A stretch of DNA of 64,000 nucleotides from Acidihalobacter prosperus (lineage in GTDB: Bacteria > Pseudomonadota > Gammaproteobacteria > DSM-5130 > Acidihalobacteraceae). The stretch covers positions 356,637 through 420,636 of the forward strand of contig NZ_JQSG02000006.1 in assembly GCF_000754095.2 (NCBI RefSeq). The letters run 5' to 3'. Below are positions 3,249 through 20,398 of this stretch, in pieces; position 1 is the first letter of the stretch, and each line of letters begins with the position of its first letter. The translations under genes and the position numbers were made by a program. The notes beneath the pieces were generated by a model. That model was given only the letters and a program-made list of their open reading frames with translations, searched no databases and was not told the origin of the DNA.

Positions 3249-3254
3249 GTGGAT

Positions 3255-5576
3255 TTAACTTGGTTTTCTCAAAGGATGCAGGCGGCGTGTGTCGCCACCG
3301 TTCTTCCAATAACTACCGGTGTCTTTTGTGGGCCAGCCGTGATCTGGACATATAAGCGCATCGGATAATTGCTCAACCAATCGGGCAAATCTGATCCCAT
3401 CTTCAGGGTACAGCTCGAAAGAAAGCGCATTGAAGTGCGCCCCCAAGACATTTCTCGCTTGGGCAATGGCCTTTAGTTCATCAAGAATCGGCCTAATCGG
3501 AAAAGGTATGATGACCTGATCACCGTTGTCATCCTCACCAACGGATTCAACAGACAGCGCATTGAGCAGCTTTCCGTTGACGGCATTCAACAAATCGCTC
3601 AGCACATAGGCGTTTCTCGGATTTCTCGGAACAGCGCACCCGTACTTCAAAGTTAAGAAATCAAGGATCGCCTCGAGAATGACACCTGCCTTACCCGTGA
3701 TAGCCTGAACGTCAGGATCAGGCGTGGCTAAGAGAGCCTTCAATCGTGTGATTTCCGGGGTGGAGCCCGTCAGAGTGATACCATCGCCAAATGACCAGTG
3801 TCGCAACTCGACAAACTGACATACCTGATCCGGTTTCAATATGCCCCAACGGAACTTCTCTCGCCAGGGGCGGTAGTGAGTGGTCACAATAGCATGCTGA
3901 AACTGCTGACTGATGTCATATATCAGCCCAATGACTCTTTCGACATGCGGTTCGTCCACGCTGCCCAATACGTCATCTAACACGAGAATCTTGGTTTCCG
4001 GATTTTCCCGTTCCGCCAATGCCAGAAACACGCACAGACCCAACGTATCCAAGTGCGAATCACTGAAATATGCCTGCGGAGGTGTGCCTGCCTTACCAGC
4101 GAATTCAGTGGCTATGTCCAGGGAACCACGTCTTGCTGCATTTAGCGCTAATACAATCTTTTTTAATCCTTCGCCCGGATGGATTTTTTCATATAACTCA
4201 CCTACTCGAGTGGAGATAACGGCAAGAATTTCATCCGTGTATTGCTTTCGTTCGCGCTCCACAATAGCCAGAACTTCTCGAAGCCGAGGAAGCACTGCTA
4301 CCAAGTCTTTGGCGACGGTTTCACTCTCTTTGTAGTCGTTCAGTGAACGGCGTAAGGTTTCGATGAAGTTCTTGCTATCCACGCAAGCGTCAGCGGCTTG
4401 CTTCCACCCCTCACGCTTTGCTTTGTGAGCATCAAGCCAATCTTTCCATTGATCATCCCCAGAGGGGATGGGAAACGAGGGGATGTCTAAGTCGAAAATC
4501 GCTTTGGTATCCGCGCAATAGTTTTCGAGTGACTCAAAGTCACTGCTCGCGTCGCCCCTAAAATCCTCAAGGCGCTGCGTGCTCATTTGCACGGTTCGTT
4601 CTGCGTTCGCGACCGCTTCCTTCGCGGTATCGAGTTTGGAGTGAAGTCCTTGCGCCTGAATGCGTCTATTGACCTCCTCAACCAATCCCTCAGCCTTTTC
4701 TGCACTTTCGCAAAGTGGACAAACTTCTGGATGCGGATGCTGTGCAAAGTGCAATTGCGCAGCTTTCAGGATACCCAGAACTTCCAAGTAGTCATCCGTT
4801 GCATCACTAGTAATTTCATTGAATTTTTCCTTGGAAACCCGTAAAGCAGTCTTCGCAAGCTCAACTTGCTCGTTGAGCCTCTCAAGCTTATCTGGATGTG
4901 AAGCAACCTTGTCCCAACAAGAAAGTAAACCGTCAATTGCAGCTTTTCGAAGATCGAGTTCTTTCTGATCTTTTTGGATTTCCGACTGGGCCCATGTGAA
5001 AGCATCAGGCGCAGGGCATCCCGCCTGGGCCCAAAAATTTTCAATGGCCTCTTTGTTTGCGCCAAGGCGCGTTGTTGCGGTTTCGTATTCACTTTGCTTG
5101 TTGTCGATCAACCTTCTCAGGGCTGTTTCTGAAGCTTCCACGCCGGATACGTCAACAAATTTGCTGATTTCTTTGTAGCGCTCAGCGGGTTGAGCAGCTA
5201 TCAAACTCAGCACCTGACTACGTCTAAGGACATCAACTTGTGGCTTGAACTGCTCGTTATCTACTACCGCAGTCTTCTTGCCCAACGACAAAGTGCATGT
5301 TCCTGCCGAAGTCTCAAGCACAACCTTCACATCGGTATGCGCTTTGCCGACTGACGGCCAGTACGTCCGAGTGGTGCCTCCCACCCCACGTCTGTCTAAA
5401 GACCCTACATTGCCATTGCCAAGCAGATCGAGGGCGTCCGAAATTGTTGATTTCCCCGTTCCGTTTTCGCCATAAACGATGGTGAGCTTTCTCCCTTTCT
5501 CGAAGTCGAGGATAAATGGCGAAACTGCTCCGCGAAGATTCTCTACCCGCAGGTTGACCAGCGAGGGACTAGTCAT
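3255..5576 (-). CDS. Rad50/RecF-like coiled-coil ATPase with zinc hook, defence-operon associated
   Basis: 773-residue ABC-class ATPase. Walker A GENGTGKST at residues 36-44, a long central region rich in charged heptad-like residues containing a CPLC zinc-hook motif at 286-289, an ABC signature-like segment near 505-520 and Walker B ILVLDDV at 530-536, followed by a 230-residue C-terminal domain I do not recognise. The layout is that of Rad50/SbcC, but it is short and no SbcD/Mre11 nuclease adjoins. The ATG at 5576 has a good AGGAG 7-8 nt upstream and overlaps the stop of the preceding 59-residue gene (ATGACTAG), so I prefer it over the in-frame start at 5612. Probably a DNA-end or DNA-structure sensor in the defence operon; that role is inferred. 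Confidence 0.85.
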   Translation of the reverse strand: MTSPSLVNLRVENLRGAVSPFILDFEKGRKLTIVYGENGTGKSTISDALDLLGNGNVGSLDRRGVGGTTRTYWPSVGKAHTDVKVVLETSAGTCTLSLGKKTAVVDNEQFKPQVDVLRRSQVLSLIAAQPAERYKEISKFVDVSGVEASETALRRLIDNKQSEYETATTRLGANKEAIENFWAQAGCPAPDAFTWAQSEIQKDQKELDLRKAAIDGLLSCWDKVASHPDKLERLNEQVELAKTALRVSKEKFNEITSDATDDYLEVLGILKAAQLHFAQHPHPEVCPLCESAEKAEGLVEEVNRRIQAQGLHSKLDTAKEAVANAERTVQMSTQRLEDFRGDASSDFESLENYCADTKAIFDLDIPSFPIPSGDDQWKDWLDAHKAKREGWKQAADACVDSKNFIETLRRSLNDYKESETVAKDLVAVLPRLREVLAIVERERKQYTDEILAVISTRVGELYEKIHPGEGLKKIVLALNAARRGSLDIATEFAGKAGTPPQAYFSDSHLDTLGLCVFLALAERENPETKILVLDDVLGSVDEPHVERVIGLIYDISQQFQHAIVTTHYRPWREKFRWGILKPDQVCQFVELRHWSFGDGITLTGSTPEITRLKALLATPDPDVQAITGKAGVILEAILDFLTLKYGCAVPRNPRNAYVLSDLLNAVNGKLLNALSVESVGEDDNGDQVIIPFPIRPILDELKAIAQARNVLGAHFNALSFELYPEDGIRFARLVEQLSDALICPDHGWPTKDTGSYWKNGGDTRRLHPLRKPS

Positions 5577-5748
5577 CAGTTTCTCCTCGATCCGTTGCTT
5601 TTTCCGTTGCAAGAAGCCAGTCCTCTGACTTCATTGTTCCTGCAGCTATCTTGGCCTGGTACTTATTCATATCCTCAGGCAACAGCAGGCCACGCTCTAC
5701 CAAGAGTGGAGCGATCAACTCAACAAGTTCTTCGGACGGAGATTTCAT
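5569..5748 (-). CDS. Small 59-residue acidic protein of unknown function in the defence operon
   Basis: A complete 60-codon frame (ATG 5748, TAG 5571-5569) between the KTSC gene and the ATPase gene. It begins MKSPSEELVEL and ends GETDD. GGTGAG sits about 8 nt before the ATG, which lies 7 nt after the KTSC stop, and the stop overlaps the ATG of the ATPase gene. This packing and the lack of a competing frame support a real gene. The N-terminal half looks amphipathic-helical. I do not recognise the family; coupling suggests it is made stoichiometrically with the ATPase, perhaps as its partner or regulator. Confidence 0.65.
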   Translation of the reverse strand: MKSPSEELVELIAPLLVERGLLLPEDMNKYQAKIAAGTMKSEDWLLATEKATDRGETDD

Positions 5749-5755
5749 ACGATTC

Positions 5756-5986
5756 TCACCACTTATTTGCGTAGCGATCTTTCACTGTCGTATTGATGTA
5801 GGAGTTCAATCCGCGTCCTTGCACCGCAAGGACTTTCATCCTCTCGACTACTGCCCCGCCTGGACGAGCGGTGTTGTAGAGATATTTGCGACACGCTCCG
5901 CTCTTGAAGACCACAAGAATCGAATCCTCAGTTGCCTCAAAAGCAAGAACATTGGAGTTCCCGTTGAGGTTGAGATATGGCGTCAT
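5756..5986 (-). CDS. KTSC-domain small protein
   Basis: 76 residues from the ATG at 5986, which overlaps the SNF2 stop (ATGA) and has GGGAG just upstream; an in-frame ATG at 5998 is also possible. The pattern S-x-V/I-xxxxYxx-x-L-x-V-x-F-x-x-G ... Y-x-Y ... G-x-x-x-N-xx-I-xxxY matches the KTSC domain: SNVLAFEATEDSILVVF, then YLYN, then SYINTTVKDRY. KTSC domains have been proposed to bind nucleic acid or act as small adaptors, but no firm activity is known to me. It sits between a SNF2 helicase and a Rad50-like ATPase, so a role in the same defence complex is inferred. Confidence 0.8.
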   Translation of the reverse strand: MTPYLNLNGNSNVLAFEATEDSILVVFKSGACRKYLYNTARPGGAVVERMKVLAVQGRGLNSYINTTVKDRYANKW

Positions 5987-8862
5987 TTCAGCTCCCATTC
6001 GATGTCAAATAGTGTCTGTTCATGAACCTGTTGCTGAAGCTGCGATTCCAATTGATCGATCAGTTCGTTGCGTTGAGCTTCCACCTCATCCTGCCGCGCA
6101 AACAACTCTCGGCGCAGCTTGCTTCGCTTACCTTCCAGTTCTCGCTGCTTTTTTTGCCATGAGAGCTTTTCTTCCAATGTAGGCGCGACGGCGGCGGTAC
6201 GGCGCAACTCCTTAATCTCGCGGTCAATATCTTTGATCTCTTGTTCAAGCCCGAGCTTGAGGTCGTCCGCCCAGGCGTCCAGCTTTCGTACTTCCTGTTC
6301 GAAGTAGCCGAGGTTGCGCTGGTTCACATCTCGCAAAAGATTGTTCTTGCGCGTTTCTAAGTCGGACGAAAGCACGGCGTCGGCTGTGTTGAATAACCCC
6401 GCCTGCTCTTGGGTGGCGGGCAAGCGCAGCAGCTTTTCCGGGTCGTCTTCGACAAGCGTGGTGCCATCGGTGGTGCTGGCCGCGACCAGCAGGTGTTGCT
6501 CACGGCTCCCGAGTGTTTCGACTTCGATCAGTTTCACGGTAAGCCACCCTGCTTTGCCGCGGTAGGGCTTCAAGGTGGCAATCTGAGAGCCATAAGCCTC
6601 ATAGTCGAATACGAGTCGCGCGCCATCCAGTGCGCGAGACTTTGCCTGTTCGGTCAGCCATAGGGCCAACGGGTGATTGACACGGTATAGATGCGCCTCA
6701 CCAGAACGACGGGGCAGTTCGTAGCGCCCGAGTTCGATACCCGTTGGACCCTTGCCGTCAACGCCGATCGGCAGGCGCTGAAGCCGGAAGCCGCCGGCAT
6801 CGAAACTCGCGTAGCCGTTCAATTCGGCTTCGGTGAGGTCCATCAGCATCCGCTCGAAGCGGTTGCGTGCGGCGCGACTGTCGTCTGCCTGGACACGGAG
6901 CTTTTCCTGCACTTCTTCGTCGAAGTTCTCCAGCAAAATCCGGCGTGTTTTGACCATCGCTTCGTTGATTTCACCGGACAGATCGAGTTGCAGTTGTTCG
7001 AAGCTGGCCTTGATCTCGCTAGGTTCGCGGCAGTTGCGATAGATGTCAGCTATACGCCGTTCGAAATCGACGCCGGAGCCGATGGTTCCTAACACTTCGT
7101 CACTGGCTCCGAAGACGCCTTCGAAAAGCTGGAACTTGTGCGCGAGCAATTCGTAGACCCGCGCATCGGCTTCGTTGCTGCGGTCGACGAAGTTGACGAC
7201 GACCACGTCGTGCTTTTGCCCGTAACGATGGCAGCGCCCGATGCGCTGTTCGATCCGTTGCGGATTCCATGGCAGGTCGTAGTTGATAACGAGCGAGCAG
7301 AATTGCAGGTTGATGCCCTCGGCACCGGCCTCTGTGGCGATCATGATCTTGCCGCGTTCCTTGAAATGCTCGACCAGGGCCGCACGGGTATCGGCCGTTT
7401 TGGAACCGGTGATGCGATCAGTGCCTGCGTGTCGTTGTAGCCAGTCTTTGTATATCGCCTGGGCGCGTGCGTCGCTGTTTGTGCCGTTGAAGAGTGCAAT
7501 GTCTTCACCGTAGGGCGTGTCCGCCAGTAAGCCGAGCAAGTAATCCTGCGTGCGGCGGGACTCAGTGAAGATTATGGCCTTCTGGGCTGCACCCAGCCGC
7601 TCCAATTCAGAGAAGGCGCGGTCCAGCGCGACGAGCAACGCTTTGCCCTTGGCATTGTGCTGAATGCTGGTCGCCAAGGTTTTGAACTGTCGAAGCTCTT
7701 CGATCTCTGCGGCGATAGCCTCACGTTCGGCGTGACTAGGTGCGGAGTCCGGAGCCTGGTCGTTCCATTCATCAGCCGTTTCGTCGAGCGATTCGTAGTC
7801 TTCATCCAGCACTTCGGACAGGTCGTCCACTTCGGGTGCCTCATCCAGCACCTTCTGTAGACGATTGGCCATAGTCTCCAACGCACCTGCAATCGCATGC
7901 GTACTGGACGCCAACAGTTTCCAAAGGACGAGAGAGATCAGCTGGCGCTGTCCGTCTGGCAACGCCTTGAGATTAGGCCGGCGCAGGTAAGCGGCAACGA
8001 GCCTGGACAGTTCACGCTCTTCTTCCGAAGGGATGAACTCCTGAACGATGGCCTTGCGTTCCGTGTATGACACGTACGGTTGAACCTGCCTGCGTAACGT
8101 GCGTTTGCACACGCTAGCCAGACGTTCACGCAAGCCACTGAAATCCCGGTCCCCGCCCAGCGCAGAGAACTGCACTCGAAAACTGTCCAGGTCACCAAAT
8201 ACCCGGTCATCGATCATGCTCACCAGCCCGTAGAGCTCAAGCAACGAGTTCTGTAGTGGTGTTGCGGTCAGTAGGACTTTGGAATGAACATGAGCAAGCG
8301 CATTTCTTAACGTCCTAGCGATGACGTTGCCCGTCTTGTAGACGTTGCGCAGGCGATGAGCTTCGTCGAGCACCACCAGATCCCACGCGATATCTCTGAC
8401 ATCATCGGCTTTAGCCTTTGCAAACTGGTAAGAGCAGATGATCGGGCCATCTGTGGTCTGAAATGGATTACGCCCCTCGTTTTTGCGGATCGCGTTATAG
8501 CTTTTGGCTTCGAGAATGAGCCCTTGCAGGCCAAACTTGTCCTGCAGCTCCTGGTGCCACTGCTTGCGCAGGTTGGCTGGGACGATGATCAGCATCTTGC
8601 GCCGCCGTTCTGCCCAGCGTTGCATGATGACCAAGCCCGCTTCGATGGTTTTGCCAAGACCCACCTCGTCAGCCAGGATCACTCCGCGGGAAAGTGGGTT
8701 CTTGCAGGCGAACAGGGCGGCCTCAACCTGATGCGGGTTGAGGTCGACCTGAGAGTCCACCAAGGTAGACGCCAGGGATTCAACAGTGTCACTGGCCGCT
8801 CGGCGAGTAAGCAGCCAGGCGTAGTATTGGCTTTGGAACGGCGTCAGCAGTGTATTCGGCAT
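5983..8862 (-). CDS. SNF2/HepA-family DEAD-like helicase, defence-operon associated
   Basis: 959-residue SNF2-superfamily ATPase. Walker A DEVGLGKT at about residues 65-72, a DEAH box (VVLDEAHRL), motif III LLTATPLQN and the C-terminal lobe with the NPQRIEQRIGR signature typical of HepA-like remodellers. The last about 120 residues are a predicted coiled coil rich in Lys, Arg, Glu and Gln. I start it at the ATG at 8862, which follows GGGAG and gives a usual N-terminus; the frame stays open to a TTG at 8916, which lacks support. Comparable helicases sit beside methyltransferase genes in type III-like and DISARM-like defence loci. First gene of the operon; its stop overlaps the KTSC start. Confidence 0.88.
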   Translation of the reverse strand: MPNTLLTPFQSQYYAWLLTRRAASDTVESLASTLVDSQVDLNPHQVEAALFACKNPLSRGVILADEVGLGKTIEAGLVIMQRWAERRRKMLIIVPANLRKQWHQELQDKFGLQGLILEAKSYNAIRKNEGRNPFQTTDGPIICSYQFAKAKADDVRDIAWDLVVLDEAHRLRNVYKTGNVIARTLRNALAHVHSKVLLTATPLQNSLLELYGLVSMIDDRVFGDLDSFRVQFSALGGDRDFSGLRERLASVCKRTLRRQVQPYVSYTERKAIVQEFIPSEEERELSRLVAAYLRRPNLKALPDGQRQLISLVLWKLLASSTHAIAGALETMANRLQKVLDEAPEVDDLSEVLDEDYESLDETADEWNDQAPDSAPSHAEREAIAAEIEELRQFKTLATSIQHNAKGKALLVALDRAFSELERLGAAQKAIIFTESRRTQDYLLGLLADTPYGEDIALFNGTNSDARAQAIYKDWLQRHAGTDRITGSKTADTRAALVEHFKERGKIMIATEAGAEGINLQFCSLVINYDLPWNPQRIEQRIGRCHRYGQKHDVVVVNFVDRSNEADARVYELLAHKFQLFEGVFGASDEVLGTIGSGVDFERRIADIYRNCREPSEIKASFEQLQLDLSGEINEAMVKTRRILLENFDEEVQEKLRVQADDSRAARNRFERMLMDLTEAELNGYASFDAGGFRLQRLPIGVDGKGPTGIELGRYELPRRSGEAHLYRVNHPLALWLTEQAKSRALDGARLVFDYEAYGSQIATLKPYRGKAGWLTVKLIEVETLGSREQHLLVAASTTDGTTLVEDDPEKLLRLPATQEQAGLFNTADAVLSSDLETRKNNLLRDVNQRNLGYFEQEVRKLDAWADDLKLGLEQEIKDIDREIKELRRTAAVAPTLEEKLSWQKKQRELEGKRSKLRRELFARQDEVEAQRNELIDQLESQLQQQVHEQTLFDIEWELK

Positions 8863-8930
8863 CAGCGCGCAAACTCCCGATCCGGTCGTTCGGGAGTCGA
8901 GTCGGCCAAGTGCCAATCAAACTGAATCAC
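8862..8930 (-). CDS. Possible 22-residue coupling/leader frame between antitoxin and SNF2 genes
   Basis: A GTG at 8930 overlaps the antitoxin stop (GTGA), and the frame ends in TGA at 8864-8862, overlapping the SNF2 ATG (TGATG). The 22 codons begin VIQFDWHLADS. Both junctions are of the termination-reinitiation type, so ribosomes could pass from the toxin-antitoxin genes into the helicase. It may simply be a chance frame; no homology is recognised. Confidence 0.3.
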   Translation of the reverse strand: MIQFDWHLADSTPERPDREFAR

Positions 8931-9277
8931 GCTGCCACTATCCTGAATTTGGACGCTTTCGCGATCGGTCGCACATGACGGTTCTCGCGGCGCATTTCGA
9001 CAATGCCGTAGTTGGACAGCGTTTTCAGCGTGCGCGATAGGTTGCCCTGCTTACGGCCAGTCGCTTCAGCCAGAGCAGAGATCGATTCCGGCTTGGTTTC
9101 CATGATGACTTTAAGCAGTGCGCGGTTGTCGTCGCTCAGAACTTCGGCCAGGGAGCGCATGGACGTAAACCAGACCTTGGGCTCGCTAGGCTTTGGCTTG
9201 TACTCGCCGCGCGCGATGGCCAGCATCCGCTCTCGAATCTGCTCTTGCGGCATGATGCCGATAACAATCTGTTTCAT
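8927..9277 (-). CDS. Winged-helix DNA-binding protein, TumA-like antitoxin
   Basis: 116 residues. The middle (about 45-105) reads as a MarR/ArsR-like winged helix: ISALAEATGRKQGNLSRTL recognition segment followed by a wing, ending KFRIVAA. This matches the HVO_A0114-type DNA-binding proteins that pair with DUF6516/TumE toxins. Its ATG overlaps the last 4 bp of the upstream TumE-like gene (ATGA), the usual reverse-order (toxin first) module. It probably neutralises the toxin and represses the shared promoter through the palindrome at 9648-9664; the repression is inferred. Confidence 0.75.
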   Translation of the reverse strand: MKQIVIGIMPQEQIRERMLAIARGEYKPKPSEPKVWFTSMRSLAEVLSDDNRALLKVIMETKPESISALAEATGRKQGNLSRTLKTLSNYGIVEMRRENRHVRPIAKASKFRIVAA

Positions 9278-9639
9278 TGGCTTTCAACCTCTTTCAGTAC
9301 GCGATCCACGTCTGCAAAAAAATCCGCCAGCAACTGGGCGGCGTCCTGAAACTCGTAGGACACACCTTTGTCAGAGACATGACGATGTTTGTGGTCATGG
9401 GCAAGGATGCGCCCCGCATACTTGAACTTCTTCGGCGGTTTGACTGCGTGTGCGTTGTCGTACCCTAAGATCCTCGTTCCATATGGCTCGTGGAGCGTTA
9501 GGGAGTAGCGGATGCCATGTGGAACGGCCGGACTCACCTCGACACGCCAAACTTCGAACTTGATCCAGTACCCGCGGCCTTGATCGATGATCTGACCATC
9601 CAGGTCTAGCAGGGTATCTATGCCATGATCTGTGCGCAT
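9274..9639 (-). CDS. TumE-like (DUF6516 family) toxin
   Basis: 121 residues. The pattern LLDLDGQIIDQGRGYWIKFEV near the N-terminus, then GIRYSLTLHEPYGTRILGYDNAH and a HDHKHRH cluster near residues 80-90, is characteristic of the DUF6516/TumE proteins of TumE-TumA toxin-antitoxin modules. Members are thought to be ribonuclease-like toxins, but the activity of this one is not shown. It is the first gene after the 17-bp palindrome and overlaps the antitoxin by 4 bp. Placement next to a restriction locus on a mobile element suggests an addiction or abortive-infection role. Confidence 0.72.
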   Translation of the reverse strand: MRTDHGIDTLLDLDGQIIDQGRGYWIKFEVWRVEVSPAVPHGIRYSLTLHEPYGTRILGYDNAHAVKPPKKFKYAGRILAHDHKHRHVSDKGVSYEFQDAAQLLADFFADVDRVLKEVESQ

Positions 9640-9728: not shown

Positions 9729-10238
9729 TCAAACCATCCCCAGCTCCGCCATACTTGAAACCCCGCCGCCAGCAGCAATGAGGTGATCCAAGACGCGCAC
9801 GTCGACTAGCCCAAGCGCCTCTTTAATCCGCCGTGTGATGGTCTGATCCGCCGCCGAGGGTTCAGGGTTACCGCTGGGGTGATTGTGAGCCAGGATGCAT
9901 GCAGCCGCGTTATTCGCTAATGCTCGTTTGACGACCTCCCGTGCGTGGACGCTGCATCCGTCAATCGTGCCCGTAAACAGTTCTTCAAAGGCGATCACCC
10001 CATGCCGGTTGTCCAGCCATAGGATGGCGAACATCTCATGCTCCCGAGGCGCAAGGCGAAGGCTGATGTACTGCTCGGCCTCCCTGGGGCTGCTGATGAC
10101 TGTCCCGCGATGCACTCGTTCTGCCAGGATGTTCCGTGCCAGCTCCAGCACGTCGTCGGCGCTGACCGGCCGGGATGCCTGGTAGTTACCTTCTTCGTCA
10201 CGGGCGAAAGCGCTTGAGTTGCTTGCAGTCTGATTCAT
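9729..10238 (-). CDS. radC: RadC-family JAMM/MPN domain protein
   Basis: 169 residues from the ATG at 10238. A JAMM metallopeptidase-like motif is clear: EE in FEELFTGT, then HNHPSGNPEPSAAD, fitting E...HxHPSGxxxPSxxD. RadC proteins were named for a presumed DNA-repair role that is now doubted; many copies travel on plasmids and ICEs as here. The frame stays open 98 codons further upstream to 10532, but that extension is Arg/Ala/Pro-rich and unlike protein, so I start at MNQTAS, at the usual length for element-borne RadC. It is the only gene between the relaxase block and the defence block apart from the toxin-antitoxin pair. Confidence 0.9.
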   Translation of the reverse strand: MNQTASNSSAFARDEEGNYQASRPVSADDVLELARNILAERVHRGTVISSPREAEQYISLRLAPREHEMFAILWLDNRHGVIAFEELFTGTIDGCSVHAREVVKRALANNAAACILAHNHPSGNPEPSAADQTITRRIKEALGLVDVRVLDHLIAAGGGVSSMAELGMV

Positions 10239-10749
10239 CGGTGCTGCTCCTAGCCTTAGTGGCGGTCGGTTTGCGTGGCGTACGCAAACCTGCCGCCCGG
10301 CGAGGGCAGGGGTAGCAAGCGTCAAGAGCCGGAGGGGCCGGCTGGCGCGGCCCGCAGCACCGCGAGGACACGGGCTGACCCTGCAGGGCGAAGCGCACCC
10401 TTGACGCGCGCGAGGGGCGGCGCCCCTTAGCGGCCTTTGCCGGTCTGCTGGCGCTTTCTGCCGACAGTCCGGCGCTGTTGGGCAAGCGGAAGCGCGCAGC
10501 GTAGATGATGTGCGCAGAGGGTTATCGCGCACATGAACGCAGCGGAGTCACGAGAGAGATGTAGCCAAGCGAAAACCGGCTGCCGCCGGCCCCAATGGGC
10601 ACAGATGGAAGAAGGATGAGTGCCCAGCGAGAATTCACTAAACGCTCACTGAGCACTTATTAACTTAGGTGCGAGCCTCCACAGCCGAATGAGCTGTTCT
10701 TGAACCTGAACTAGGCAGGAGGCCGGCGCCATGACATGAAACAGAAACA
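10239..10749. other. GC-rich non-coding region upstream of radC
   Basis: About 510 bases without a convincing gene. The first 260 bases (10260-10500) are very GC-rich and stay open in several frames, with Ala/Arg/Pro-rich translations, which is a base-composition effect. The rest holds an 8-bp-arm inverted repeat at 10508-10534. The distal part (10620-10740) is AT-richer and contains no frame I would call. A regulatory or transfer-related function is possible; I see no sequence I can name. Confidence 0.5.
10508..10534. repeat. Inverted repeat, 8-bp perfect arms
   Basis: ATGTGCGC at 10508-10515 and its exact reverse complement GCGCACAT at 10527-10534, separated by 11 bases. It lies 270 bp upstream of the radC start in the GC-rich leader region. 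It could be a protein-binding site or hairpin; its function is unknown. Confidence 0.55.
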
Positions 10750-11135: not shown

Positions 11136-13919
11136 TCACCAATCCTCCATCGTCATGACTATTTCGTCTTCCTGCTCCTGCATCGCCTGGGCGACCATGT
11201 CTTGTTGCTCTGAGCCGCTCATCGCTTGGGCTTCCTCCAGCCCGGACTGCTCGACCACATAGTCCAGGGTTGTCTCTTTTTGCCTGCTGGCGCTCATCGC
11301 CGACACCAAATCACGCATCTCAGCCAGCCGCGGGTCGCTTGCTGGCCGCCCGTCAATGCCCAGAACATTGCACGCGTGCTGATCCAGCCAGGCTCGACAT
11401 GCTGCAAATGAGTCGTCGCATTCGGGCGGCAACTCGACGAATTGCTCCGCGGCAATTGTCTGGGCCAGACCCCGCATTTTTTCTGTTGGCGGCAGCTGCT
11501 CAGCCGCGTCGCGCAGCTGCTGCCTAGTCGCTATGATCTCGGCCGTTTGCCGCATACGGCTCATCTGTACATAGATGCTTTCGCGGCTGGTCATGCTGCC
11601 GCCCGCGAGCGCCACGACTCTATCAACCGTGGCGCCTTGGGCTGCATAAGTCGTAACGGCGTAGCCATGCCGGAGCTGGCTGTACTCCGCTGGATCGATT
11701 GCCACGCGCTCACCAGTGCGGTCGAGACGGACGAGGATCCGCAAGCCTTCTTGCGTGTAGTTGATTCGATCGACGGTTACCAGATCGCCATTCTTCAGGC
11801 CTGTTGCTCGGTCGTTTTTCTTCGCAAGCAATCGATCACCTTCGGCGACCTGAAGTCGACCGGCTGGCCGCCCTTCCCTGTCACGCACCTGAATAACGAC
11901 TTCATTGGTTAGTTTGTGCTCGGCCGACATCCGAGCGCGCGCCGCCTGATTCAGTGCCTGGACCTCCACATTGGTTGAGGCCATTAATAACGTTTCTGAC
12001 TCACCCACCACGGCTGAGTGGTGTACCCAGCGGTCCACGGTGCGATCGATTGCTGCTCGCTGATCGTCCTCGACATAGACCAAGTCGCGATCGAGAAATT
12101 TGGTGATCGCGGCGGCCGCCTCGCCGCGACTGAATTCCTCGACGGCTACTTTGGCCCATTCGGCTTTCTGACGACGAATCTCTGAGATTCGTGCCGAATC
12201 GCGTTCGGCGAGATGCCTGAAAACCCCGCCGGCCGAAACTGCCTGAAGCTGCTTGTGATCACCCACCATGACCACGCGGCATCCGGCGATGGCGGCGTGT
12301 TGCATGATCCTGTGCATGGTCCGTGAGTCGACCATGCCGGCCTCATCAATCACGAGAACGTCGGTGCTGGAGAGAACCTCTCGCGGTGGATGAACCTCGT
12401 CTGTATCCTCATTGACCGACGGTTCCAGGGCTATTAGCAGACCGGCAATCGTGCGGCTTTTAATCCCACTGCCCTCTTGCAGACCCGCTGCGGCCTTTCC
12501 GGAAATTGCACAACCAAGCACTCGCTGACTATTGCTTTCCCAGGCCATGCGCGCTGCCAGCATCGCAGTGGATTTGCCGGCGCCAGCATCTCCGACAATG
12601 ACCCGGAAGGCGCCATCGCTTTGGGTCGCATAGCGGACAGCGGCCTGTTGCTCGGTAGACAGGGCAAAGCCCTTTTCAGCAGCAAATCGATCCAACGCGG
12701 AGTCCACTAATGCGCTCGGCACAACGTGGTGGGTTTCTGCGCTGCGGGCCTCGGCGGCGGTGATGATCTTGCGCTCCTGACGGTACAGTGCACGCGAGGT
12801 GTAGCGGACAGCCCCAGTCTCAGGATGCACCATGCGTAGGATCTCGCTGCTCCGCATGACTAGGTCTACGTGCTCACGGATAGTGTCTAACTGAAGCCCG
12901 CGGTGTTGGGCGGCGACAGCAACGGTCCGCCAAATATGGCGGCTCTCGATCACCGCATCCAAGGCTGTAGCCTTGGTCAGCAACTCTTCGGGGTTCGGCA
13001 TAGGGCCGATGTCTTTGGGCTCTACTTTGGCGGTCAGCGTCTGATCGGCCGAGAAGCCCATTTCGGACGCTTCCTCCTGCCAACGCGCGTGCAGAAGCTC
13101 GGCATCGAGATCTTTGGCTTTACTCACCCGGGTGCTGAGGGCGGCCAGCTCGCTAGCTTTGGCGGAGCCTTCCATACCAACTTCGGAAAGCGCTGCCTCA
13201 ATCTGCTCACGGCGTTTGCTGAAATACCGACACACATCATCGGGCACGCCACATACCTTGAATGAATCACCGTCGGCAGCCACTTGGTAACCCAGCTCGG
13301 CCATGCCGGCAGCTAGCTCGGCCCTATATATGGCGCCTAGAGCCATTTTCCAACGATATAGCTCAAGGGGATCAATCCCGCCCCAGGTTCCATCCTGCCT
13401 CATGGCCAAGTTGTGAAGAAATGCATGCGTGTGAAGCTGCGGGTCTTGCTCACGGCTTGTGCCATGCCGAAAAAGACCTATGAGTAACTTCGCCGACTCA
13501 TACTCTCTGCCGCCCTTACCACGACGGGCTAGCGAAAACTCTTGCTCAATATGTGAAAGCGCACTCTCTACCGCATGATCATGCGTACGCTGGATCTCCA
13601 TGCGACGCGTGACGTCAGCCAAACCCCAGAGGACGGATACGGATTTCGGTGCACTGAACGTAGCGTCCCATCCGGCTCGGTGCGCGGACCCCGCTCCCTG
13701 TACCAAGTCCTGGCCACTCGGGGACCGGCCCTCGGCCGCCATAACAAACATGTCAGCCTTGACCTCTCCGATCAGACCCAGCGCAGCGGCGCCCGCCCCG
13801 AACCATTGACCGCCTCCTTCGGACGCGTAGTACTCATCCGCGCGCCCCCGCTCATCGCGCATGTGCGTGTAATAGTTGACTGCTTCGCCGGCGCTCCCAC
13901 GGCTGCTGATGCTTAGCAT
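11136..13919 (-). CDS. MobF-family (TrwC/TraI-type) conjugative relaxase-helicase
   Basis: 927 residues, close to TrwC. N-terminal relaxase domain with paired tyrosines Y16-Y17 and Y30-Y31 and the metal-binding His cluster in QLHTHAFLHN (H163, H165). A second half carries a RecD-like helicase: Walker A GDAGAGKST near residue 430, Walker B VLVIDEAGMVD, and a late YAVTTYAAQGATVDRV motif. It would nick oriT, stay covalently attached to the DNA and unwind it for transfer. Its ATG shares one base with the coupling-protein stop (TAATG), so the two are co-translated. No truncation is seen. Confidence 0.93.
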   Translation of the reverse strand: MLSISSRGSAGEAVNYYTHMRDERGRADEYYASEGGGQWFGAGAAALGLIGEVKADMFVMAAEGRSPSGQDLVQGAGSAHRAGWDATFSAPKSVSVLWGLADVTRRMEIQRTHDHAVESALSHIEQEFSLARRGKGGREYESAKLLIGLFRHGTSREQDPQLHTHAFLHNLAMRQDGTWGGIDPLELYRWKMALGAIYRAELAAGMAELGYQVAADGDSFKVCGVPDDVCRYFSKRREQIEAALSEVGMEGSAKASELAALSTRVSKAKDLDAELLHARWQEEASEMGFSADQTLTAKVEPKDIGPMPNPEELLTKATALDAVIESRHIWRTVAVAAQHRGLQLDTIREHVDLVMRSSEILRMVHPETGAVRYTSRALYRQERKIITAAEARSAETHHVVPSALVDSALDRFAAEKGFALSTEQQAAVRYATQSDGAFRVIVGDAGAGKSTAMLAARMAWESNSQRVLGCAISGKAAAGLQEGSGIKSRTIAGLLIALEPSVNEDTDEVHPPREVLSSTDVLVIDEAGMVDSRTMHRIMQHAAIAGCRVVMVGDHKQLQAVSAGGVFRHLAERDSARISEIRRQKAEWAKVAVEEFSRGEAAAAITKFLDRDLVYVEDDQRAAIDRTVDRWVHHSAVVGESETLLMASTNVEVQALNQAARARMSAEHKLTNEVVIQVRDREGRPAGRLQVAEGDRLLAKKNDRATGLKNGDLVTVDRINYTQEGLRILVRLDRTGERVAIDPAEYSQLRHGYAVTTYAAQGATVDRVVALAGGSMTSRESIYVQMSRMRQTAEIIATRQQLRDAAEQLPPTEKMRGLAQTIAAEQFVELPPECDDSFAACRAWLDQHACNVLGIDGRPASDPRLAEMRDLVSAMSASRQKETTLDYVVEQSGLEEAQAMSGSEQQDMVAQAMQEQEDEIVMTMEDW

Positions 13920-15946
13920 TATCGGACCTCCATCTGGTCAGCGGGCTCGGAACTGGAACGGAGACGAAATTTCCGACGTCGGGACATGGCGGTGGACGGT
14001 TGCGATGCAGTTGGAGCTTCGGTCACTTGCTGAAGCTGCTCGGCTTCCTCGTCGGCCGAAATCTTCGTAGAGCCATGTTGTGCCTCGGCCATCCGCTGTT
14101 CGGATTTGGCGGATGCGCCTCCGACCGACTTGGGCGGCGGAGCAGGTTGGGTGGGAGCGGGACATGGCCTGGCCTTGCCCGCCTTCTTTGATTTGAGCGA
14201 TTGGGTCCACAGGGCCGGCAGATGGCTTTTGGTGACGTTCCGCCATTGGCTACTAGGCCACCACAGCCGAAACACGTAATCGGGACCGGTCAACAGCAGC
14301 GCATCAATCCCTGGGCGAAACCAACGGCGACGAAACCCGAGTCCGCTAAACTCATGGGGGTAGACAACATATGATTCGGCATGCTGTTCGGTGGCCGTTA
14401 TGGAGTTCGTCTGATGCGCAATAACCCCCGGCGTGCCGCTTTGGCTCTGAGTGCGGCGGGTGATCAGTTGGCGTCCTACGTAATCCGCTGCCCAGGTAGC
14501 GTCCTCATCCCGACATTTCCCTAACAAAACTGTGCTGAAGAGACCTGGCAGGTTGACGTTCCGGTACCGCTCAAAGTGCTTCGTCTGCTGTGTGGCGAAG
14601 AAGCAGCAAATTCCCTTTGATCGCCCAGTCTCCAAAAACTTCTCGATACCATCGATAGTGCCGAGTTGTGCAAACTCGTCCAACATTAGCCACACTCGGC
14701 GAGAGCGAGAGTCTTCTAGTTCACTGACTTCGGCTACGAGCGCCTGAATAATTGCCCCATTCACCGCTTCCGCGAGCTGTTTGTAGTTTCCAGACCCCTG
14801 CAGTATCACGACGCGTGGGCCGCACTCACCGCGGATCCATTCACGGGCGCTCCATGCCCGAAAATTCTTTCGGCTTCGCGCCTCCTGCTCTGCCACAGCG
14901 AGTCCACGCAGCAGAGGGGCAACCTGCGTTTTGAGGTTCGACAGAAAGCTGGCCGTGGGATTGGAGGCCGGGTTCTCGGCTATATCTGCGTCGGGATTGC
15001 CCTCCAGAGCCACAGCGCGCATCTCAGCGAACGGCTGCAGAATTGCGGCACGTAGATCGGCCCACCCCCAATTTATGCCCTCGTTCTTTTTCCGATTTGC
15101 CAGATACACCAACAGGCCAGTCAGGATCGCCGCCGCACCGTCGGCAAAGATCGCGTTTCTTCCATCTGCCGGAGGTACTAGCCGAGAGGCCAATTCTTGC
15201 GCGGCGATTTCCGAATCGATGTCCTCGGCAACCGCCCAAATGACCGTGCGCCTGTCCCATAGGGCGTGCAGAATCGCCCCCTTGGCCTCGGGTTGGCTCA
15301 GAATTCGAGCAGTGTACTCACGCTTGGGATCGTGGATGACCAAGCGACTCGCTGGCTCATCACGTAGGATTGATGTGACAAGCCATTCCTCGACGGTGGT
15401 CTTGCCACTACCTTGACCGCCAATAAATAAAATGGATTCAGACTCGCGTAGGCGGCTGATCTGCAGCTGCGGGTGAATCCGAACACCGGCTCCGCCTGCA
15501 CGACACTCAGCTCTCATTTCTCGCTGTGCGGAGCGCATCGCTGTACGGCCGATCAGCAGCCAACGGCCGCGGAGAGGGCGAACATCCACAGAACCAACCC
15601 GCACGCCCGATATGATGGCCACCATCAGTCCAGCGAATGCTCCGGCGCCAGAGCATAACCACCACCATTTCGCGTAGACAGACAGCCATCTTCTTGCCGA
15701 GTCTGGGTCGGCTGAGTAACCCACCACAGCTGAGATAACATGCCTCGTAAGCGAAGGGAGGTTCTCGGGTGTGAGCGACCAAACAACTACGACCATCAGT
15801 TCGTGAAATGAAACTGGATAGAGCCAACCCCGCGGATAGAGACTGCTGGCGTATCCCACGTAGAGCGCTGCCACAGCCAAAGCGGGGATAAACAGCAACC
15901 CCAAAATCGAAATTGAGAGAAGAGTGAGAGGGTAGTCACGGTCCAT
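13919..15946 (-). CDS. VirD4/TrwB-type IV coupling protein
   Basis: 675-residue inner-membrane ATPase that brings the relaxosome to the secretion pore. Two N-terminal hydrophobic segments (about 8-35 and 97-117), Walker A GGQGSGKTT at about 176-184, Walker B VWLMLDEFAQLG, and the downstream FATQQTKHFERYR segment typical of the TraD/TrwB family. The C-terminal 120 residues are Pro/Ala/Ser-rich and probably disordered. It lies 7 nt after the ribbon-helix-helix gene and is coupled to the relaxase gene, the trwA-trwB-trwC order of R388-type systems. Confidence 0.92.
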   Translation of the reverse strand: MDRDYPLTLLSISILGLLFIPALAVAALYVGYASSLYPRGWLYPVSFHELMVVVVWSLTPENLPSLTRHVISAVVGYSADPDSARRWLSVYAKWWWLCSGAGAFAGLMVAIISGVRVGSVDVRPLRGRWLLIGRTAMRSAQREMRAECRAGGAGVRIHPQLQISRLRESESILFIGGQGSGKTTVEEWLVTSILRDEPASRLVIHDPKREYTARILSQPEAKGAILHALWDRRTVIWAVAEDIDSEIAAQELASRLVPPADGRNAIFADGAAAILTGLLVYLANRKKNEGINWGWADLRAAILQPFAEMRAVALEGNPDADIAENPASNPTASFLSNLKTQVAPLLRGLAVAEQEARSRKNFRAWSAREWIRGECGPRVVILQGSGNYKQLAEAVNGAIIQALVAEVSELEDSRSRRVWLMLDEFAQLGTIDGIEKFLETGRSKGICCFFATQQTKHFERYRNVNLPGLFSTVLLGKCRDEDATWAADYVGRQLITRRTQSQSGTPGVIAHQTNSITATEQHAESYVVYPHEFSGLGFRRRWFRPGIDALLLTGPDYVFRLWWPSSQWRNVTKSHLPALWTQSLKSKKAGKARPCPAPTQPAPPPKSVGGASAKSEQRMAEAQHGSTKISADEEAEQLQQVTEAPTASQPSTAMSRRRKFRLRSSSEPADQMEVR

Positions 15947-16470: not shown

Positions 16471-17376
16471 TCATCGTGATGCTCCTGGCGTGGCAGTAGA
16501 ACTGGTGAGAAGAGGATGGTGCGGCGCGAGCATTCGGAGCTCATCCAACTCTTTGCCCGCGAGTTCGGGTCGACCCAACGATTGGAAGTGCACTATCGCG
16601 CTCGCCAGCTCGCGAACACGGACGCGCTTCGAGTCAAGATCGGGTTCAGCAGCAGAATTTCTGGCGGCAGCGACCTTCAGCCCAAGCTCGGGAGTGGGTT
16701 GGTCAGTCATCCACCGTTGCGCCGTCGCGCGCAGCCAACCGAGACGGTTGGGGATTTTCCGACCAGCGGCGACTGCCCCCGCTAGTTCATCAAGGAGCGC
16801 CTGATGCAGACATATCGGCAGCTTGCACAGCAGGGACGAGAGCCCGTCACGCTCAGGTCCTGTCAGAATCGATGGGAAGATCAGTTCCTGCCGATCGTCA
16901 TCATTACCACTACCACCGCCCTGCCCTTGATTGCTAACTGGAGGGGTGGTTGTGGTAGTAGCATTTGGTCGTAGTGGTATATGAGATGACACGGATGATG
17001 TCACTTCACCCCCGACACCAGTGTCAGGATTCGGAGTGACATCCCAGGTTTCAGGGGTGACGCCTGCGACAGCGGCGACATTCATGACGTCACCACTCAG
17101 CGTCTGCAGTAAATCAACGCGAACGTGATAGATAGAGCGATGTCCGGGGCGGTGTGTGATTGTCAGCCATCCCCGACTCGCCAGGTCGCTCAGGACTCTT
17201 TGAGTCTGCCGCTTGCCTCGTCGGATCCGCTTGGCAAGGCGTGAGACCGTCGCGCGGCGGTAGATGACCACCCCGTCGTCGTCCGCCCAATCGGCTAGCG
17301 CCAGCATCGCGATCAAGAGTGTTCCATCGACTGCCCGCCCCGCATCCCAGACGGCAAGTTGTGCGCGGATGCTCAC
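16471..17376 (-). CDS. Winged-helix protein, possible element replication or regulatory protein
   Basis: 301 residues from a GTG at 17376 that overlaps the stop of the upstream HTH gene (GTGA). Residues 1-100 form a helix-turn-helix domain of the plasmid-replication or primosome type (LLIAMLALADWADDDGVVIY, then VSRLAKRIRRGKRQTQRVL and a wing). A low-complexity linker with poly-Thr and Gly-Gly stretches (about 140-160) leads to an Ala/Leu-rich C-terminal helical domain. Such proteins are common on plasmids and ICEs near the replication and maintenance genes, but I cannot assign a named family. Conservation of the element's basic functions is suggested by its place beside oriT. Confidence 0.6.
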   Translation of the reverse strand: MSIRAQLAVWDAGRAVDGTLLIAMLALADWADDDGVVIYRRATVSRLAKRIRRGKRQTQRVLSDLASRGWLTITHRPGHRSIYHVRVDLLQTLSGDVMNVAAVAGVTPETWDVTPNPDTGVGGEVTSSVSSHIPLRPNATTTTTPPVSNQGQGGGSGNDDDRQELIFPSILTGPERDGLSSLLCKLPICLHQALLDELAGAVAAGRKIPNRLGWLRATAQRWMTDQPTPELGLKVAAARNSAAEPDLDSKRVRVRELASAIVHFQSLGRPELAGKELDELRMLAPHHPLLTSSTATPGASR

Positions 17377-17754: not shown

Positions 17755-18636
17755 ATGGGTTATGAAACAATCCACCGGCAACTTTTCCGAGCCCCACGCC
17801 AAAAGGCGCTCACTCCGCAGGTAGTGGCGCAGCGGGTGATGAGACTGCTGCCTCGTGGTCAGTATCCGCGAGGACGCAAGATGGCGCGAAGCATCGCCAA
17901 GATCCGGCGAGAGGTAAGCTGGAGCAAGTTAGATCGCCTCAGCGAGCAGATCGAACGGGAAAGTCAGATCCTCCACGGGATCGGGAGTCCAGCCCCCGAT
18001 GTGGGTGACTTAGTCGAGGCATTGATCTGGCGCGGCTGGCCATACTCGGATGATGCGCAGAGCCCCTCCGCTCGGCAGTTGTGTAGCTACTGCCATCGCC
18101 CGTCTGTAGGTGTAACTTCGCCTCCTGGAGGCCTCGGGCTAAAAGCGAAAGTATGCGCCCACCATATAGCTCGCACCCCGGGAGCACAACGGGCTGCGCG
18201 GCTCACACGATGGGCTGGAGGAGTGATATCACTTCATGACAAAGTTTTAAACGAGGTGGTGAGGCTGAGAGGGGAATTAAGTGAACCTGCCACCGAGCAG
18301 GCAACCATCCAAAAACTAGAAGCAGTGCTGGCGGGGGCCAGCATTGACCGAGTTACCCTGGCGTGGTGGAAGCGATTGCCCGACCTGGAGTTGCCGATCC
18401 GGATTTCGGCACATCTAGCAGTAGAGGCTGAGTACCGTCGATGGGTGACTGAGTCCCGAATTGAGGGAGGTAAGCGCGGCGGCGCCAAGGGTGGTCGACC
18501 AAGGATGATGGACGACGATAAAGTATCTCGGGCCCAACTTATGATGAGCAGCGGCTCCAGCCTAAGACAAGCGGCACGAGGGGTAGGCATGTCGCCATCG
18601 TCTCTGTCTCGGCGGCTCCGCGCGGCGGTACAGTAG
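17755..18636 (+). CDS. Hypothetical element protein with C-terminal helix-turn-helix
   Basis: 293 residues, the only plus-strand gene of the element in the window and the last before the att end. A possible zinc-binding site is formed by CSYCHRP (about residue 109) and KVCAHH 26 residues later. The C-terminus has a Lys/Arg/Gly-rich linker (GGKRGGAKGGRPR) joined to a resolvase-type helix-turn-helix (SLRQAARGVGMSPSSLSRRL). No Shine-Dalgarno precedes the ATG, so it may be leaderless. CGTAACTT, also found in the att region, occurs at 17741-17748. I do not recognise the family; control of excision or maintenance is a guess from position. Confidence 0.65.
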   Translation: MGYETIHRQLFRAPRQKALTPQVVAQRVMRLLPRGQYPRGRKMARSIAKIRREVSWSKLDRLSEQIERESQILHGIGSPAPDVGDLVEALIWRGWPYSDDAQSPSARQLCSYCHRPSVGVTSPPGGLGLKAKVCAHHIARTPGAQRAARLTRWAGGVISLHDKVLNEVVRLRGELSEPATEQATIQKLEAVLAGASIDRVTLAWWKRLPDLELPIRISAHLAVEAEYRRWVTESRIEGGKRGGAKGGRPRMMDDDKVSRAQLMMSSGSSLRQAARGVGMSPSSLSRRLRAAVQ

Positions 18637-18724
18637 CGGTACAGTCCCTAGTTCCTCTCAACTCACCTAAATTGATGTAACCTAATGATATTAAAGAGAG
18701 ATTTATAAGTTTTAGCGTTTCCTG

Positions 18725-18759
18725 AAGTTACGGCCAGTTACCCAGCTTATCCGTAACTT
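18725..18759. repeat. Inverted repeat near the element end, possible recombinase arm site
   Basis: AAGTTACGG at 18725-18733 and its exact complement CCGTAACTT at 18751-18759, 17 bases apart, about 20 bp inside the tRNA-derived att site. A third copy of the core CGTAACTT lies at 17741-17748. Arm-type integrase or Xis sites usually lie at such distances; the assignment is inference. Confidence 0.5.
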
Positions 18760-18775
18760 ATTGATTTTAAATACA

Positions 18776-18821
18776 ACTCATAATCCCTTGGTCCTCGGTT
18801 CGAGTCCGAGCGGGCCCACCA
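18776..18821 (+). other. Displaced 3' half of a CAT-anticodon tRNA (attachment site)
   Basis: From the anticodon loop onward the sequence is a tRNA: CAT anticodon at 18779-18781, T-stem CTCGG 18794-18798 paired with CCGAG 18806-18810 around loop TTCGAGT, acceptor strand CGGGCCC, discriminator A and encoded CCA at 18819-18821. The 5' side (TTTAAATACAA) does not pair with the anticodon stem, and there is no D-arm or acceptor 5' strand, so the gene is broken at the anticodon loop. This is the footprint of a tRNA-targeting integrase. The parent could be tRNA-Met or lysidine-type tRNA-Ile2; the CTTGGTC variable region resembles the latter. Confidence 0.85.
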
Positions 18822-18837
18822 TCACCTTCTCCCGACA

Positions 18838-19383
18838 TCACACATCCATCACGCGAGCGACCGTCTCCTTGTCGTCGATGATGGGGTATTGGTCTTCGGC
18901 AGGGAGGTTATAGTGCCACCATTCGTGGGGCTGGTGGCACCAGCCGGCGGCGGTCATGAGGCCCAGCAGCAGCGCGCGGTTGCGCTGGGTGTCGGGGGGA
19001 ATGTCCAGACGGCCATGGTAGGACTGTTCGCGCATGTCGTCGAAGCCGGTTCCCATCGCCAGCGCTTGGCCATCGGCGCCTGCCAGTGTGAGATCGACGG
19101 CGATGCCGCGACTGTGGGTGGAACCGATGCGCGGGTCGGCGACGAAGGTTGCGTCGGGCAGCGTTTCCCACAGACGCCATTGGGCAGCCGGCGGCCGATA
19201 GGCGTCGTAGACGATCAGTCGGCAGTCGAGCGCCGCGGCGAGGTCGGCGGCGCGCATCAATGCGTCATGGGCCTCCGGGTGCAGCAGCGCAGCGGGACGG
19301 GCGTAGATCGGGTGGCCCGTGATGTTGTCGGCGGTCGCGTAGCGCAAGTCGATGGCGATCGCGGGATGGTCGATGGCGAACAA
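18838..19383 (-). CDS. ddpX: D-alanyl-D-alanine dipeptidase, VanX/DdpX-like
   Basis: Zinc dipeptidase of the VanX family. The zinc and catalytic signature is intact: STHSRGIAVDLTL (SxHxxGxAxD) and EWWHYNL (ExxH). I start at the TTG at 19383 because AGGAGG lies about 7 nt upstream and the protein then begins MFAIDHP, giving 181 residues, near the usual 190-200. The frame runs upstream to 19611 but would overlap dppF and read unlike the family. It is the last gene of the dpp operon, 37 nt after dppF, which fits E. coli ddpXABCDF-type D-Ala-D-Ala salvage. Resistance to glycopeptides is not implied without vanA/vanH, which are absent. Confidence 0.87.
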   Translation of the reverse strand: MFAIDHPAIAIDLRYATADNITGHPIYARPAALLHPEAHDALMRAADLAAALDCRLIVYDAYRPPAAQWRLWETLPDATFVADPRIGSTHSRGIAVDLTLAGADGQALAMGTGFDDMREQSYHGRLDIPPDTQRNRALLLGLMTAAGWCHQPHEWWHYNLPAEDQYPIIDDKETVARVMDV

Positions 19384-19420
19384 GTCCGTTCCTCCTGTGG
19401 TGGTCTCGGTCCTGGCCGGC

Positions 19421-20398
19421 TCAGCGCGCTGCGCGGAAGCGATGGCAGCGCACGGCCCATGTCGGCGTGTCGACCACTGTCGATAATTCCTGAGGGCGTT
19501 CGCAACCGGCTTGCGCGTGTGGGCAGCGTTCGCGAAAGAAGCAGCCCGACGGTAGCCTGCGATTGGAGGGCAGTTCAACGTTCTCCGGCGGACGCTCCGC
19601 CGCGGCACCACCGTCGACGCGGGGCACCGATTCGCACAGCAGGCGCGTGTAGGGATGGCGCGGGCCGTCGAGCACGGCGCCGGCCGGGCCGATTTCCACG
19701 ATCTGTCCGAGATACATCACGGCCACCCGGTCGGCCATGTGACGGACGACGGAAACGTCGTGCGAGATGAGCACATAGGTCAGGCGGCGCCGCTGACGCA
19801 GGTCGAGCAGCAGGTTGAGTATCTGCGCCTGCACCGATACATCGAGCGCCGATGTGGGTTCGTCGAGCACGATGATATCGGGTTCGGAGGATAGCGCGCG
19901 GGCAATCGCGATGCGTTGGCGCTGGCCACCGGAGAATTCGTGGGCATACCGGTCGACATGCTCCGCGCGCAGGCCGACCTGCTCGGCCAGCGTTGCAGCC
20001 ATCCGGCGCAGCACGCGCGTCGGCAAGCGCTGGCGCAGGAACACTGGCTCGGTGATGATGCGCCAGACACGCATGCGCGGGTCGAGTGAGGCATTGGGGT
20101 CCTGGAACACGATCTGCGCGGGTCTTTTGTCCGCATGCGCATGCACATGCGCGCCGCCGACCTGCACACGACCGCTACTGGGGGTCAGCAGCCCGGTCAA
20201 CACCTGCGCGAGCGTGCTCTTGCCGCAACCGGATTCGCCGACGATGCCCAAGGTCTCGCCCTGGGCGACCTCAAGATCGATGCCGTTGAGCGCATGCACG
20301 TATTCGCGCGCGCGGCCCAGCCAGTCGCGGCGCAGCGGGAAACGCACGCGCAGTTCCTCGACACGCAGCGGGATGTCGGACGTCGCGTCCTCGTTCAT
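19421..20398 (-). CDS. dppF: Dipeptide ABC transporter ATP-binding subunit DppF-like
   Basis: 325-residue ATPase of the oligopeptide/dipeptide importer class. Walker A GESGCGKST, signature FSGGQRQRIAIARAL, Walker B IIVLDEPTSALD, and the C-terminal Cys-containing oligopeptide-type tail (CFFRERCPHAQAGC) that binds an iron-sulfur cluster in some members. The ATG at 20398 overlaps the dppD stop by 4 bp (ATGA). Works with DppD as the ATPase heterodimer energising DppB-DppC. Confidence 0.92.
   Translation of the reverse strand: MNEDATSDIPLRVEELRVRFPLRRDWLGRAREYVHALNGIDLEVAQGETLGIVGESGCGKSTLAQVLTGLLTPSSGRVQVGGAHVHAHADKRPAQIVFQDPNASLDPRMRVWRIITEPVFLRQRLPTRVLRRMAATLAEQVGLRAEHVDRYAHEFSGGQRQRIAIARALSSEPDIIVLDEPTSALDVSVQAQILNLLLDLRQRRRLTYVLISHDVSVVRHMADRVAVMYLGQIVEIGPAGAVLDGPRHPYTRLLCESVPRVDGGAAAERPPENVELPSNRRLPSGCFFRERCPHAQAGCERPQELSTVVDTPTWAVRCHRFRAAR

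Follow-up and report, generated by a model that had tools for sequence, protein, structure and literature searches.

How did the 3′ half of a tRNA gene come to stand alone at position 18776 of the stretch of DNA analyzed here? This stretch, referred to below as the window, is 64,000 nucleotides long and corresponds to C6:356637–420636 in the 3.36-Mb genome (8 contigs) of Acidihalobacter prosperus. A first-pass annotation, made from the letters of the window, had taken the fragment for the right end of an element that integrated at the anticodon loop of a tRNA gene, and had predicted an intact CAT-anticodon tRNA and an integrase beyond the left edge of the window. Our analysis led to the same view. 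With a probability that we put at about 0.93, the fragment is the attR of E1, as we denote an integrative and mobilizable element of 22,830 bp that was inserted in tRNA-Ile2(CAU) by its own tyrosine integrase. A sister element elsewhere in the same genome is denoted E2.

The displaced tRNA half and its intact partner

The 47 bp at 18776–18822 on the forward strand of the window (ACTCATAATCC...GGGCCCACCAT) recur without a single mismatch as a direct repeat at C6:352582–352628 (47/47, E = 6.1e-18), and span the tRNA from A31 to the CCA plus one T. This repeat confirms the proposed boundary at the 3′ tRNA half, with a start at 18776 that was exact to the base, and shows that the T at 18822 is shared as well. 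The left copy belongs to an intact tRNA(CAT), of which it forms the 3′ part; ARAGORN places this gene at C6:352551–352627, starting 4.1 kb to the left of the window, on the side where it had been predicted. The outcome that the annotation had named as refuting its reading, a lack of a matching tRNA on the left, was therefore not observed. No complete tRNA was found by ARAGORN in the 64-kb window itself. The gene was expected to begin with GGGCCCG, but actually begins with GGGCCTG, with a T6-G pair. The predicted integrase was also present: a tyrosine integrase gene begins with a GTG codon 99 nt past the CCA of this tRNA. The reading frame preceding the tRNA is rpoD-like, as named by eye from its sequence.

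The DNA on the 5′ side of 18776 is indeed foreign to the tRNA. It contains TTGATTT (18761–18767), 8 nt before A31, and the tandem GGTACA-N5-GGTACA with an 11-bp period (18627–18643, forward strand), a putative arm-type or excision-factor site, both of which are common to related elements. A longer right-end motif, GTAACTTATTGATTT (18753–18767, forward strand), is the inverse of AAATCAATAGGTTAC, which follows the CCA at the left end, and a motif resembling GTAACTTATTGATTT is present in E2 and in the attR of four relatives. On the other side of the fragment, the adjacent host gene encodes an M15 D-Ala-D-Ala dipeptidase (18838–19611, reverse strand). Measured from A31 to A31, E1 is 22,830 bp long. 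In terms of the Islander definition, an intact tRNA is accompanied by a displaced fragment in the same orientation, the 3′ fragment lies downstream at a distance within 2–200 kb, and a tyrosine integrase is encoded inside.

Identity of the target tRNA

A total of 43 tRNA genes, all different, were found genome-wide. Since tRNA-Ile(GAT) and Ala(TGC) are missing from these 43, either the assembly or the tRNA list is incomplete. Three of the genes have a CAT anticodon, the third of which resembles an initiator. The second shows the pairs of elongator Met, T4-A69 and A5-T68 (Table 1 of PMC9976931), and the target carries C4-G69 and C5-G68, which passages of PMC12514573 describe as the pairs read by E. 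coli TilS in tRNA-Ile2. Both pairs are found in 31 of the 33 CAT targets of the named relatives discussed below (the best 80 of 184), the exceptions being L070 and L097. ARAGORN labels the target Met(cat), from the anticodon, but it is highly improbable that E1 entered an elongator methionine tRNA, since the target has the TilS identity pairs of tRNA-Ile2 and the remaining two CAT tRNAs look like an elongator and an initiator. Its sequence makes the target most probably a tRNA-Ile2, of which no other was found, rather than Met.

The insertion site in neighboring genomes

In two genomes of the same genus, the tRNA and the M15 gene found next to attR are separated by 1.0 and 1.3 kb, which supports an insertion between the two. 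In both genomes, the interval is filled by ≈1 kb of other DNA, not E1, and no clean empty site was found among the neighboring genomes compared. The M15 gene lies elsewhere in a third genome (G003) and was not found in a fourth (G004). The latter genome, from the same family, has, right after the same tRNA, what is left of another integrase gene, interrupted by in-frame stops (L169:246–700, G004:C57), indicating that the site has been used repeatedly.

Repeated use makes nested events possible, and the fragment could in principle be the end of some other, older insertion or a tRNA remnant present by chance, in which case the intact tRNA and the integrase would belong to a different element. 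We consider this very unlikely, since the copies agree at all 47 bases and are accompanied by matching end motifs and the clade's GGTACA tandem, and since there is no further tRNA fragment of this kind in the enclosed 22.8 kb (a 141-bp query was found in three places only in the genome). The reading as attR is supported by the 47/47 repeat, the other copy of which has an intact tRNA and an integrase, by the same layout in E2 at tRNA-Lys(TTT), by the far ends of relatives, which carry the same tRNA half, and by the GGTACA tandem at both ends of E1.

Gene content of E1

Nearest to the right end, E1 has an ORF of 293 amino acids (17755–18636, forward strand) that weakly matches a family of phage DNA-binding proteins (phrog_664, E = 1.9e-5) and has no match in Pfam and NCBIfam searches. 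All other features described here are on the reverse strand. An ORF of 301 amino acids (16471–17376) has a weak match to O-like replication initiators (phrog_391, E = 4.1e-8) and none in Pfam. There follow a TrwB/TraD-type coupling protein of 675 amino acids (13919–15946; PF10412, E = 5e-42) and a MobF (TrwC-type) relaxase-helicase of 927 amino acids (11136–13919; PF08751, E = 3.6e-75; NCBIfam MobF above cut-off), and then a RadC-like protein of 267 amino acids (9729–10532; PF04002) and a candidate toxin–antitoxin pair, comprising an HTH protein (116 amino acids) and a TumE-like toxin (121 amino acids) (8927–9639; PF25212 and PF20126). The remaining genes encode an SNF2-type helicase of 977 amino acids (5983–8916), for which DrmD is the closest PADLOC model, an AAA/SMC-like ATPase of 785 amino acids (3255–5612) with weak similarity to LmuB, and a type III methyltransferase (Mod) of 569 amino acids (1539–3248), next to which lies the Res gene, extending past the left edge of the window. 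Together, the Res, Mod, ATPase and SNF2 helicase genes form a single minus-strand run of defense-like cargo that occupies positions 1–8916 of the window and continues to C6:355446. No secretion genes or phage structural families were found among the 17 E1 ORFs scanned with Pfam. A relaxase and a coupling protein, without secretion or phage structural genes in the scanned ORFs, fit an integrative and mobilizable element.

The E1 integrase

The E1 integrase has 343 amino acids (L005:728–1756; PF00589, E = 1.5e-25). Residues R200, H296, R299, H322 and Y331 are invariant across 15 integrase sequences, and the column of the catalytic lysine is shifted by one in E1 (K224 vs. K225). An AlphaFold model (pLDDT 82, pTM 0.55) consists of three domains, in which residues 1–46 are predicted to form three strands and a helix, that is, an N-terminal domain of the arm-binding type. 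The best match of the model in the PDB is full-length lambda integrase (1z1b), aligned over 349 columns with 19% identity. The long branch of the E1 integrase in the tree prompted a closer look at its catalytic domain. The first 75 residues have a median identity of 71% to the family, as is usual, and residues 156–343 have a median of 37%, compared to 61–69% in seven comparison rows. A class-wide search with the E1 catalytic domain yielded no relative closer than 43%. Judged from these identities, the protein may be a mosaic, produced by recombination, or may be fast-evolving.

The sister element E2

The E2 integrase (C2:557168–558229) is 48% identical to that of E1 and adjoins tRNA-Lys(TTT), the 3′ half of which is found again at the far end of the element at C2:535.2k, 23.1 kb away (L044/L045, G000:C2:535.2–558.3k). 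The 354-amino-acid frame of this integrase is open, and a TGA sits ahead of its GTG start. The two elements have MobF relaxases that are 39% identical, coupling proteins that are 25% identical, and RadC-like proteins that are 57% identical over 121 residues. E2 carries as cargo an ISP-type restriction enzyme of 1622 amino acids, and a DnaB-like helicase is also present. A third element was considered at the Thr-CGT tRNA beside a distant integrase of the same genome, and was rejected because there was no separate copy of the tRNA 3′ half in the genome.

The crossover point and the far ends of relatives

The tRNA half was identified at the far ends of relatives with 46/46 (L070), 46/46 (L079) and 45/46 (L122) matching bases. 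Of six far-end copies compared, five (E1, E2, L079, L120 and L122) are identical to the tRNA from position 31 onward and one (L070) from position 30. In the viral contigs L180, L186, L188, L190, L192 and L194, identity with the tRNA type was seen by eye to start at position 32. Since loop bases 32–38 are shared in all copies compared, we infer that the crossover would occur inside this part of the anticodon loop. The resemblance of anticodon loops to the lambda overlap is already known, as described in a section of PMC8371274. Altogether, 13 viral contigs (within L180–L195) have a tRNA 3′ half upstream of the integrase without the 5′ half, an arrangement that is attP-like or represents a tandem junction.

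A strict attR pattern, TTGATTT-N8-AYT-NNN-AATC, was run on 48 genomes, which did not include those of L089 and L097, and gave matches in seven. The matches in L174, L176 and L179 agree with the tRNA beside the integrase, and L175 has the same Thr half by eye, while those in L173, L177 and L178 look like chance and were rejected as attR. For most relatives, this pattern did not locate the far end in the 48 genomes.

A shared anticodon stem-loop in the targets

The E1 integrase alone, when used as query against the genome contigs, retrieved no relative. With an alignment of both integrases of the A. prosperus genome as the query, 184 relatives were obtained, the best 80 of which constitute the named set. 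ARAGORN found a tRNA on the same strand ≤154 nt upstream of the integrase in 72 of the 80 named loci (best 80 of 184), distributed over the types CAT (33), Leu-CAA (25), Phe-GAA (6), Thr-TGT (3), Lys-TTT (3) and Lys-CTT (2). No tRNA was found by ARAGORN near the integrase in the other eight: in five of these (L067, L082, L085, L134 and L131) the 3′ part of a tRNA could be recognized by eye, L084 has a degenerate one, and L088 and L100 have no tRNA part within 330 bp, L100 having a tRNA-Thr 1.1 kb upstream.

The stem-loop GAYT-NNN-AATC is found in the targets of 71 of the 72 named loci (from the best 80 of 184 relatives), 16 of the 17 class-wide clade loci and both elements of the A. prosperus genome, adding up to 89 of 91. 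The exceptions to this rule are L097 (GAATCATAATC) and L217 (Gly-GCC). At L217 (G195:C39), the clade integrase stands beside tRNA-Gly(GCC), and a rule-fitting tRNA-Leu(TAA) is found just upstream of that tRNA or integrase locus. Five divergent class-wide matches (L213–L216 and L220) were placed in the wider set before counting. In this wider family, the rule fits 4 of the 16 loci that have a tRNA (24 loci in all; hand count).

In the A. prosperus genome, 11 of the 43 tRNAs fit the rule, 10 of which were caught by the pattern and one, Lys-TTT, was added by eye. If all tRNAs were equally likely to be used, the probability that six of six target types fall within these 11 would be 7.6e-5, or 4.7e-4 for six of seven types with Gly-GCC counted; these values are based on the tRNA set of this one genome, and the loci are related by descent, so that the counts are not independent. 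The elongator Met tRNA of the genome has an identical anticodon loop but CACTCATAATG, and the 33 CAT targets (best 80 of 184 relatives) have GACTCATAATC in 32 cases and GAATCATAATC in one. Other tRNAs of the genome that fit the rule, and with which no clade integrase was seen, are Asn-GTT, Leu-TAA, Ser-CGA, Tyr-GTA and Thr-CGT.

Closely related integrases use different targets, such as CAT vs. Lys-CTT for a pair that is 81% identical and Phe vs. CAT for a pair that is 80% identical. On integrase trees that were quickly made and have many open forks, the minimum number of target changes was 9 with 81 rows, of which 73 or 74 were labelled, and 13 with 85 labelled rows; for the latter tree, the five listed of 100 shuffles gave 39–44. 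The sequences compared suggest that the clade targets an anticodon stem-loop of the form GAYT-NNN-AATC, in which the anticodon is a variable center. Such a center would allow close relatives to move among several tRNA genes.

The 11-bp hexamer tandem

The tandem GGTACA-N5-GGTACA occurs twice in E1, near the integrase (with one mismatch) and 149 bp before A31; no other GGTACA tandem with ≤1 mismatch was found on either strand of its 22.8 kb. In the attR copies in the genomes of L070, L079, L100 and L122, which were searched with up to two mismatches permitted (0–1 seen), the distance from the start of the tandem to A31 is exactly 138 bp, one repeat unit less than in E1. In the 80 bp preceding the integrase, 78 of the 94 clade loci and 18 of the 24 wider loci have a hexamer that recurs unchanged at a distance of 11, compared to 0–4 (clade) and 0–2 (wider) loci for every other distance from 7 to 30, and to 21 of 1781 (clade) and 9 of 400 (wider) random windows of the same loci. 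E1 is counted among the misses because its integrase-side copy has one mismatch. The hexamer varies by integrase group (GGTACA, GGGACA, GTCACA, TGGACA and others), and the 11-bp spacing is kept in the wider family. Hexamer similarity tracks N-domain similarity to a degree reached in 0 of 1000 permutations, and the catalytic domain does about equally well; the partial correlations of the hexamer with the N-domain and the catalytic domain are also about equal (0.26 and 0.29). No description of such an 11-bp tandem was recognized in the literature at the level of titles and abstract openings, mostly of non-subscription papers.

The GGTACA tandems may be arm sites of the integrase. They might instead be binding sites for an excision factor (RDF), whose operators consist of six-base direct repeats spaced 10–11 bp, or about one helical turn, apart, as in Apl of phage 186 (PMC7498355). 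However, the tandem flanks the core on both sides and accompanies the clade integrase in most loci, and no RDF gene was recognized in the ORFs scanned; neither point is decisive, and we regard the RDF explanation as less likely than not.

Discussion

Both ends of E1, its integrase, relaxase and coupling protein, and the end motifs shared with other elements can be read directly in the DNA. In the mechanism that we propose, the tRNA 3′ half would also be present in the attP of E1, which the integrase would recombine with the tRNA-Ile2(CAU) gene next to the rpoD-like gene, at its anticodon loop. The intact tRNA would thereby be regenerated on the left, at attL, and the original 3′ half displaced to the right, at attR. 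Conjugative transfer of E1 would presumably proceed via the secretion apparatus of a helper. Points that speak against this account are that the neighboring genomes compared offer no clean empty site, that E1 was not seen in excised form, and that the catalytic domain of its integrase is unusually divergent.

Islands that target tRNA genes with an anticodon-centered attP account for 2083 of 3919 islands in Islander, according to passages of PMC4383910. E1 resembles the Islander tRNA islands in having an intact tRNA, a displaced 3′ fragment in the same orientation and an integrase between them, without any essential difference. We assume that E1 itself is outside the Islander data set. It shares an integrase, a relaxase, a coupling protein and the lack of secretion genes in the scanned ORFs with MobF IMEs (review PMC5704250), but differs from them in its cargo of type III restriction-modification, SNF2 helicase and SMC-like ATPase. 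The three-domain model of the integrase is like lambda integrase (1z1b) and the arm-binding tyrosine recombinases treated in sections of PMC8138268; unlike lambda integrase, to which it is 19% identical, it has a putative accessory site, GGTACA with an 11-bp period, and targets a tRNA anticodon loop. The use of many tRNA genes by one integrase lineage is reminiscent of the archaeal target-switching integrases of the pT26-2 type (PMC8371274), whereas the present integrases are bacterial, form a separate lineage, and are proposed to follow a stem-loop rule with a free anticodon center.

The insertion event itself is of an ordinary, well-known kind; what the analysis adds is a target rule drawn from comparison and a signature of hexamer tandems, both of them computational. 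The exact ends of E1, together with E2 at another tRNA, make the change of target by tRNA-targeting integrases testable, and the 11-bp tandem offers a handle on the specificity of accessory sites. As a tentative generalization, somewhat short of an even chance, the attachment logic could be readable from sequence, in that the clade targets GAYT-NNN-AATC with the anticodon left free and uses an accessory hexamer, repeated 11 bp apart at the integrase and at the far end, that varies with the integrase. If this is true, both the target tRNA and the accessory site would be predictable for uncharacterized integrases, and the switching among tRNA genes by close relatives would be explained.
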